A stretch of 64,000 bases of DNA from an uncultured Clostridia bacterium. Its GTDB lineage: Bacteria > Bacillota > Clostridia > Oscillospirales > CAG-382. Shown here one piece after another: positions 3,124-37,597 of this stretch (positions are counted from its first letter, which is position 1; each line of letters opens with the position of its first letter). The notes beneath the pieces are model-generated. The model saw nothing but the letters and a program-made list of their open reading frames with translations. It did no database searches and was not told the origin of the DNA. Location of the stretch: NCBI GenBank assembly GCA_947630765.1, contig CANRIX010000001.1:174743-238742 (forward strand). The letters are read 5' to 3'. The translations under genes and the position numbers were made by a program.

Positions 3124-4188
3124 ATGGCGAGCAAACTCGAAAAACCGCCGCAGAAAGCGGTCGATCCCGTCGAGGAATTTCTCAGTCAGCTTCCCTATCC
3201 GATGCTCGGACTTGACGAGAAGCGCAGACTGACCTCCCGCAACTTCAGCGATACCGTCAATATCCACACGCCCCGCAAACAGGCTTCCATCGACCCGCTG
3301 CTTTCGAGCGCGGACCGAAAGAAACTCGATTCGCTCGAAGACGGCAAAGAGACCGTCGTCGAACTGCGGGGCGAAAGTACCCGTTCCGCCATCGTCGCCC
3401 GCCGGCGGGACGGCTATCTCGTCGCCCTGCGGGACCTGACCGCGTCGCTCGCGTCCAAAATCGCCCGAAGGGGCTGCGAACCGCCGCCGTTCTTCCGTCT
3501 GACCGTCGGGCAGATCGACCGTATGCGCACGCAGAAGACCCTCTCCGACGAGGACCTGCGCACGCTTCGCAGGAATATCAAGCGAATGGTCCGCTGCAAC
3601 CTCGAACTGGGAATGTACCTCCGTTTCACCGAGGACCTCGCCGAGAAAGCGCCCCTCTGCGACGCGACCGCGCAGCTTCGGCGATTGCTCGCGACGGCGC
3701 TCAAAATGCTCAATCCCAACGGGTTCCGCCCGTCCGTGAAGCTCCTCGACGCGCCGCAGTACGTCCGCGCCGCATCGGACGAGCTTTGCTACGCGGCGGC
3801 GACCCTGCTTTCCGTCGCCGCAGAGCACACCCGTTCCCGGGAATTCTTTCAAATCCGAAGCGACATCTTCGACGACGAATACATCTTTTCCGTCTGCTTC
3901 GAGCCGGCGTTCGGCGAGGACCTTCGCAGTCTGGTGCTTTCCGGGGACTACGAATCCGGGCTGGAAACCGTCTGCGGTGGACTGTTCTTCGACCTGCTCG
4001 TGCTCAAAAAGCTCGCCGAATGCAACGGCTGGCGCTTCGCCGTCGGTCGGGACGGGGAATCCGAGGACGTGCTTCGCATGATGCTGCTCTTCCCCTGCAC
4101 CCGCTCCGACGCGCTGCGGCTGGAAGAACCGGCGGACCGCGAACCGCTGCTGCGCTTCCTGCTCCTGCCGGCCCTTCTCCCGGATTGA
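3124..4188 (+). CDS. Hypothetical protein resembling a degenerate PAS-histidine kinase
   Basis: A 354-residue soluble protein that I do not recognise with certainty. The N-terminus (about 15-60) reads like a small PAS-type sensor. Residues ~125-170 form helices in the place of a kinase dimerisation domain (DEDLRTLRRNIKRMVRCNLE), but no phospho-acceptor His is visible. The C-terminal ~150 residues have the alternating pattern of an HATPase-like domain without clear N or G boxes. If this reading is right, it has lost kinase chemistry and may act as a scaffold or antagonist. It stands alone behind its own promoter with GGAGG before the ATG. No response regulator is adjacent. Confidence 0.45.
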   Translation: MASKLEKPPQKAVDPVEEFLSQLPYPMLGLDEKRRLTSRNFSDTVNIHTPRKQASIDPLLSSADRKKLDSLEDGKETVVELRGESTRSAIVARRRDGYLVALRDLTASLASKIARRGCEPPPFFRLTVGQIDRMRTQKTLSDEDLRTLRRNIKRMVRCNLELGMYLRFTEDLAEKAPLCDATAQLRRLLATALKMLNPNGFRPSVKLLDAPQYVRAASDELCYAAATLLSVAAEHTRSREFFQIRSDIFDDEYIFSVCFEPAFGEDLRSLVLSGDYESGLETVCGGLFFDLLVLKKLAECNGWRFAVGRDGESEDVLRMMLLFPCTRSDALRLEEPADREPLLRFLLLPALLPD

Positions 4189-4259
4189 ACGGGAACCGTT
4201 CTATTATACCGCGTACAAACCTGTTTGTCAATCAAAAACAAGCAAAAATCCCGTCTTTG

Positions 4260-4283
4260 GAGCGTGTCGATTACGACACGCTC
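4260..4283. terminator. Perfect 10-bp hairpin between convergent genes
   Basis: GAGCGTGTCG - ATTA - CGACACGCTC. It is followed by only a short T run on the plus strand, so it may terminate the gene ending at 4188 weakly. It abuts the 3' end of repeat copy A. Confidence 0.5.
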
Positions 4284-4483
4284 TTTCGGGTGGCAAACAC
4301 GATCACAGCGACTTCGCGCACTTTGTGCGCTCCGCCTTGTTCCGTATTTTCCCCCCGAATAACCCCCCCTTTCGTCGAAAACCGGCTCGGCTTGCGCCAC
4401 TTCTGACGCCGCCATCGCCGGTTTTCTCTGGAGGTGTCCCTCCGGCGGCACATGTCCGCCTACGGGACGTTTTTTATTGTATT
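4283..4483 (-). repeat. Dispersed structured intergenic element, copy A
   Basis: About 200 bp, read on the minus strand, starting 30 nt after gatB. It aligns almost end to end with 37398-37588 (copy B). Hairpin P1 (4436-4468) pairs GTCCC-GTA-GGCGG with CCGCC-GGA-GGGAC. Hairpin P2 (4378-4425) pairs AAAACCGGC with GCCGGTTTT and encloses the identical core GTCAGAAGTGGCGCAAGCC, which holds GGC-GCAA-GCC with a GNRA-type loop. The two copies differ in both stems by changes that preserve pairing. A G-rich stretch and a less conserved tail follow. The two copies differ by a 2-nt indel in that stretch, which argues against a coding role. It fills most of the 325-nt gap between gene ends. Confidence 0.75.
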
Positions 4484-4513
4484 TTTTGTTCCGCTGGCGT
4501 CTTTTCGATTCCG

Positions 4514-37364: not shown

Positions 37365-37397
37365 TCGTCGTGTCAAAAAAACTCCAACACAGTCAAA

Positions 37398-37588
37398 ATA
37401 CAATAAAATAATGCCCCGTAGGCGGACATGTGCCGCCGGAGGGGCTCCTCAAGAGAAAAGCGGCGAAGGCGGCGTCAGAAGTGGCGCAAGCCGAGCCGCT
37501 TTTCGAACAAAGGGGGGGATTCGGGGGGAAAAGTCAGAGCAAGACGACGCGTAGCGACGTCGCCGCGATTGCGTTTGCCCCCCCGAAA
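37398..37588 (+). repeat. Dispersed structured intergenic element, copy B
   Basis: Same element as 4283-4483 in the opposite strand orientation. P1 (37413-37445) pairs GCCCC-GTA-GGCGG with CCGCC-GGA-GGGGC. P2 (37456-37503) pairs AAAAGCGGC with GCCGCTTTT around the identical core. Compared with copy A, one base pair in each stem is swapped on both sides (T-A to C-G in P1; C-G to G-C in P2). Like copy A it lies between convergent genes, downstream of a gene on its own strand (the repressor) and running toward the end of the ABC permease gene. It occupies most of this 321-nt gap. Confidence 0.75.
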
Positions 37589-37597
37589 AATTCCCCA

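Follow-up and report, generated by a model that had tools for sequence, protein, structure and literature searches.

The window, i.e., the whole 64,000-nucleotide stretch of DNA that was analyzed, contains two copies of a structured intergenic element. Covariance model R1 matches copy 1 at positions 4282–4485 of the minus strand (230 bits) and copy 2 at positions 37395–37590 of the plus strand (218 bits); both stretches named in the original prediction were thus found where they had been placed. The gatB gene (minus strand) lies upstream of copy 1, and the opposing ORF matches no Pfam family. Copy 2 is preceded by an HTH/S24 repressor-like gene and is opposed by a gene for an FtsX-like permease. 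Directly past copy 1 there is a perfect sigma-70 consensus promoter (TTGACA-17-TATAAT; window 4203–4231, minus strand) directed into the 3′ end of ORF 3124–4188, a possible miscall without any match in Pfam.

Each copy begins with an A-rich 5′ part containing the sequence TACAAT (4476–4481, minus strand, just ahead of stem 1 in copy 1; 37399–37404, plus strand, in copy 2). The consensus fold and covariation define the remaining parts: a 33-nt stem 1 with the loop GG-ACAUGUG-CC (4436–4468, minus; 37413–37445, plus), hairpin 2 (4377–4426, minus, GAAAACCGGC...GCCGGTTTTC, with the inner GCGUCA-GAAG-UGGCGC; 37455–37504, plus, GAAAAGCGGC...GCCGCTTTTC), and hairpin 3, which has a second G-run ahead of it (4285–4359, minus, TTCGGGGGG...CCACCCGAA; 37520–37587, plus, TTCGGGGGG...CCCCCGAA). 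Copy 1 ends in a short terminal hairpin, GAGCGTGTCG-TAA-TCGACACGCTC (4260–4283, minus), which resembles the right end TCGACACGCTGA of full-length relatives described below, while GTGTCAAAAAAAC (37370–37382, plus), immediately 3′ of the upstream gene's hairpin, is a possible eroded left end of copy 2, comparable to the CTGTCrAAAAA of the same relatives. The G-run ahead of hairpin 3 tends to mirror the internal G-run (window 4363–4372 versus 4347–4356, AAAAAGGGG...GGGGGAAAAA). These mirrored runs occupy the same place in most copies and both seem to covary between copies, a symmetry that suggests a possible triple strand.

The paired changes reported between the two copies, GTCCC/GGGAC to GCCCC/GGGGC and AAAACCGGC/GCCGGTTTT to AAAAGCGGC/GCCGCTTTT, are real. 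A GCAA tetraloop, which had also been assigned to the core, is unsupported in the window family because the predicted consensus inner hairpin is GCGUCA-GNAN-UGGCGC; relatives have a GC-GCGA-GC mini hairpin at this place. The minus-strand RNA of copy 1 folded with z = -7.6 versus z = -4.1 for its complement.

When copy 1 was compared to its own genome using blastn, 44 matching pieces were obtained (best E = 7e-115), which excludes a chance similarity. Model R1, built from 25 copies of the window genome, gave ~73 matches at E<1e-3 in the 2.1 Mb of this genome, both window copies among them. The existence of further copies in relatives, on which the original prediction had been made to depend, was borne out, with 36 and 44 matches in two genomes of the same genus. 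Aligned copies are ~195–250 bp in size and contain no transposase gene. Within the 25-copy alignment 98% of the cells pair, and double changes occur in 19 of 51 pairs; the 76 double-change cells compare with 22.6 +/- 5.1 in shuffled alignments and 1–22 when the pairing was slid to other partners. Some copies of the window genome (L016, L026, L027, L028, and L029) carry an extra near-perfect palindrome of ~25–31 bp, placed at one of a few sites of the fold and mostly differing in sequence from copy to copy. Searches of Rfam 15 at gathering and permissive thresholds returned no family at the element, in accordance with the view that it belongs to no known RNA family, and no intron match was obtained there from Rfam. 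Literature searches revealed no description of the element, and the family is a previously unlisted, ~200-base mobile DNA.

Weak matches elsewhere, together with an exact-pattern scan of all genomes, revealed a more general core; many matches of the scan were due to chance, and only those with a pairing stem were retained. In order, this core comprises an A-rich leader that often includes TACAAT, then stem 1, an ACCUUA-like linker, and a second hairpin. Stem 1 is nearly always 33 nt long; its 11 base pairs vary fully and enclose the loop GG-ACAUGYG-CC. The second hairpin combines a variable outer helix with a constant inner GGCGCGAGCGAACG that contains the GC-GCGA-GC mini hairpin. Across 20 diverse core sequences, 97% of the cells pair and 126 cells are changed on both sides, versus 34 in shuffles and 11–35 with slid partners; for a further 19 distinct core sequences, whose alignment was fitted to the model, the corresponding values were 91 versus 21. 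With model R2, 68 of 394 genomes of the order proved to carry the core, as did 14 of 391 genomes drawn from the class, 11 of these from other orders. Stems resemble each other within one genome and differ between genomes. TACAAT is kept in most relatives and is missing in several lineages; no -35 box or -35 enrichment was found ahead of it, and its interpretation as a sigma-70 promoter was therefore rejected.

Several individual loci of the wider family deserve mention. L374 (G197) and L375 (G162) each contain three copies arranged in tandem (period, 183 bp) in near-identical stretches, although the genomes are assigned to different families; the shared stretch may reflect recent transfer or cross-contamination of the drafts. 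At L377 (G193) and L383 (G115), a copy occupies the same site ahead of the same gene, in the orientation of that gene, the start of which resembles arginyl-tRNA synthetase; the two copies differ by one paired change in stem 1. At L422, L424, L425, and L427 (G036), a hairpin of the type GGGGGTACCCCCGAAAATCGTCAGATTTTTGGGGG recurs just past the element, and either G-run is a potential pairing partner of its C-run.

The ends of full-length elements were defined by aligning copies within G118, G234, and G277. Conserved ends lie well beyond the core, where the left one reads CAGnCTGTCrAAAAA and the right one TCGACACGCTGA or TTTTTTGACAGTCTC; the two ends are inverted repeats of one another in these genomes as well as in G261 copies. 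Among the copies of three related lineages with both ends recognized, 15 of 18 show flanking direct repeats of 12 bp or more (maximum, 37 bp), while mismatched flank pairs, used as a control, gave 0 such repeats. The repeated flank is mostly a complete intrinsic-terminator hairpin, e.g., GCCCCCCGCCCAAAACGGGCGGGGGGC; complete copies in related bacteria sit within hairpins predicted to end transcripts.

An insertion sequence with matching properties was found in G075, where CAGACTGTCGAAAAAC and GTTCTTCGACAGTCTG enclose a 484-aa transposase and the whole is flanked by a duplicated terminator hairpin. The transposase belongs to the IS1182 family (NCBIfam NF033551, 385.9 bits versus a cut-off of 270). 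Another IS1182 element, terminated by CTGTCGAAAAAG, is present in G052, a member of the window's own family. Because the G075 insertion sequence shares both the ends and the duplicated terminator hairpin, an IS1182-type enzyme is the likely mobilizer, a suggestion drawn from this single insertion sequence. The window genome yielded no IS1182 transposase, nor did G000, G118, G277, G022, G012, and others rich in copies, and PF13751 is absent from most element-carrying genomes; either the drafts lack the gene through incompleteness, or the enzyme has been lost, or another enzyme acts. Inverted ends, hairpin duplications, and an IS1182 insertion sequence with the same ends together lead us to describe the element best as a MITE of the IS1182 type. 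The non-autonomous mobile element that had been listed among several options is thus supported, given also its presence and absence at orthologous sites.

Within the window lineage the ends are mostly eroded and hard to define, and inverted ends are eroded or absent in most copies of the window genome. Several of these copies have a TGTCrA-like sequence 18–24 nt upstream of the modelled start, and a few, including window copy 1, retain the TCGACACG hairpin. Flanking repeats were detected in only 2 of 69 core copies of this lineage (G000/G001/G014), and L325 of the window genome has a 36-bp duplicated hairpin. The window-lineage copies are probably older than the full-length ones. Many of those in the window genome are also present in two close relatives. 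When eight sites were taken from relatives, several were empty in the window genome, two of these with element remnants, and we conclude that copies come and go, although insertion and deletion are not always distinguishable at changed empty sites. The left flanks at L318:7291, L320:3001, L323, L326:3001, L329, L338, and L341 have in common a different left part around CGCCGTTTTCTGATGCGCACCCAAGCGCTGC, as if another repeat had been joined to the core.

The position of the copies relative to genes is constant in one respect. According to gene calls from our own simple coding model, in which single cases may be wrong, the 3′ end of the element opposes a gene on the other strand in 41 of 52 copies (p = 4e-5), the stop codon of this facing gene being a median of ~14 nt away, and the same arrangement was observed for 28 of 33 copies in other lineages. 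Since most window-lineage copies are ~14 nt from the facing stop codon, there is often no room for a separate terminator hairpin, and the element has probably replaced that of the facing gene, which would fit the hairpin replacement reported for IS1272. Replication direction as a cause of the orientation was rejected, as there was no relation to local GC skew (29/53).

Maintenance of the folded form, which the original prediction regarded as apparently selected, is supported, as paired changes lie far above the controls whether the copies of the genome, those of the order, or orthologous copies are compared. For the last of these, 31 compensatory pair changes were counted in close relatives versus 0–8 with slid pairing, indicating that the fold was kept after insertion, unless conversion supplies the paired changes. 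In the window family, 309 G-U pairs were found versus 46 A-C mismatches, or 124 versus 46 after exclusion of the invariably G-U positions, and this excess marks the plus strand. The G-U:A-C ratio was 34:15 when the preceding gene runs with the element and 35:13 when it runs against it. Transcription of the neighbor was consequently rejected as the source of the bias, which does not arise from membership in the neighbor's transcript; the element's own RNA or single-stranded DNA is a more likely origin. A role in the 3′ UTR of the gene upstream, also considered originally, is not supported by these observations, as the strand bias is independent of the neighbors and the nearby stop of the facing gene is the constant feature.

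We propose, with a probability of roughly 0.72, that the element is a MITE moved in trans by a DDE transposase of the IS1182 family, with duplication of the target hairpin and conservation of the interior fold. An IS1182-type transposase would join the element to a host terminator hairpin, and repair would then copy the whole hairpin onto both sides of the element; in the window lineage, the element would have taken the place of the facing gene's terminator hairpin. Unlike that of ordinary MITEs, the interior would not be free to drift; the plus strand combines hypervariable stems with constant loops in a fixed plan that is kept between copies, genera, and orthologous copies. This folded strand, whether as RNA made from the element itself or in the form of single-stranded DNA, may be needed for the element's spread or upkeep. 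A wider reading, which we consider possible though doubtful, is that of a terminator-targeting class, distributed across a class of gut bacteria, that would require for its spread, beyond the terminal repeats, an internal part folded as RNA or single-stranded DNA; this RNA-like part, with its hypervariable stems and constant loops, would act jointly with an IS1182-type DDE transposase.

The maintained fold would also be expected if once-mobile copies were now kept by the host as transcript-end modules or small RNAs. The compensatory changes at orthologous sites, the location near the facing gene's stop codon in 41 of 52 copies and in 28 of 33 copies of other lineages, and a terminator-like hairpin with a T-rich tail on the facing gene's strand all agree with such a use, and Coxiella MITEs are known as sources of sRNAs (PMC5896051). 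However, copies are gained and lost between close relatives, G-U pairs are kept on the strand opposite to the transcript of the facing gene, identically in both neighbor arrangements, and TACAAT lacks a -35 box, all of which makes host use unlikely as the main explanation. A process without selection, in which template switching or conversion between copies perfects imperfect palindromes, would generate paired changes at the DNA level. The diverse core sets leave room for such a mutational process, since their pairs are almost all Watson–Crick, wobble is rare, and the bias is weak (G-U:A-C only 6:2 and 11:8); the similarity of stems within genomes and their difference between genomes point in the same direction. 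Yet this process has no strand preference, contrary to the 124 versus 46 of the window family, and would not explain why the 11-bp stem length and the loops stay constant although the stem letters change completely; we regard it as quite improbable.

Movement by a Y1 HUH transposase, as for a REPIN-like or IS200/IS605-derived element, is suggested by the strand-specific hairpins, the small size, and the high copy number. It is already contradicted and very improbable, as Y1_Tnp is absent from several element-rich genomes, IS200 copies in genomes with the element do not share its hairpin, and terminal inverted repeats with long duplications are not made by such elements; Y1/HUH enzymes were accordingly rejected as mobilizers. 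REPINs and other REP-derived elements resemble the IS1182-type MITE in being dispersed, palindromic, and dependent on a trans-acting enzyme, but they are smaller units that use an HUH enzyme and lack the combination of terminal inverted repeats and long duplications. Group IIC introns likewise insert at terminator hairpins and have a conserved RNA structure; however, no target duplication is expected for them and their arrangement relative to the terminator differs.

Among the closest known systems is the IS1182 family, in particular its member IS1272, which is reported to target stem-loops; according to a proposal of its authors, the complete stem-loop would be duplicated if joining took place at the base of the stem (PMC5678879). 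Both systems share short terminal inverted repeats, stem-loop targets, and a DDE transposase of the same family, here in a relative; in contrast to IS1272, which replaces the hairpin, the present element duplicates it as a whole, and it is ~200–250 bp long, gene-less, and conserved in its interior fold (PMC5678879). QMITE1 and QMITE2 of Coxiella are, by their description, similar in their small size, their frequent location between genes or in 3′ UTRs, their number of ~50 copies, and their ability to yield small RNAs, but they have short direct repeats of 2–11 nt and belong to another phylum (PMC5896051).

These results account for a high-copy intergenic repeat in many uncultured gut Clostridia, and the covariance models can be used to mask or annotate such repeats. 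They add MITEs that duplicate whole terminator hairpins to the knowledge of the IS1182 family and lead to the question as to why the fold of a mobile element without genes is kept so precisely even though its stems change freely.
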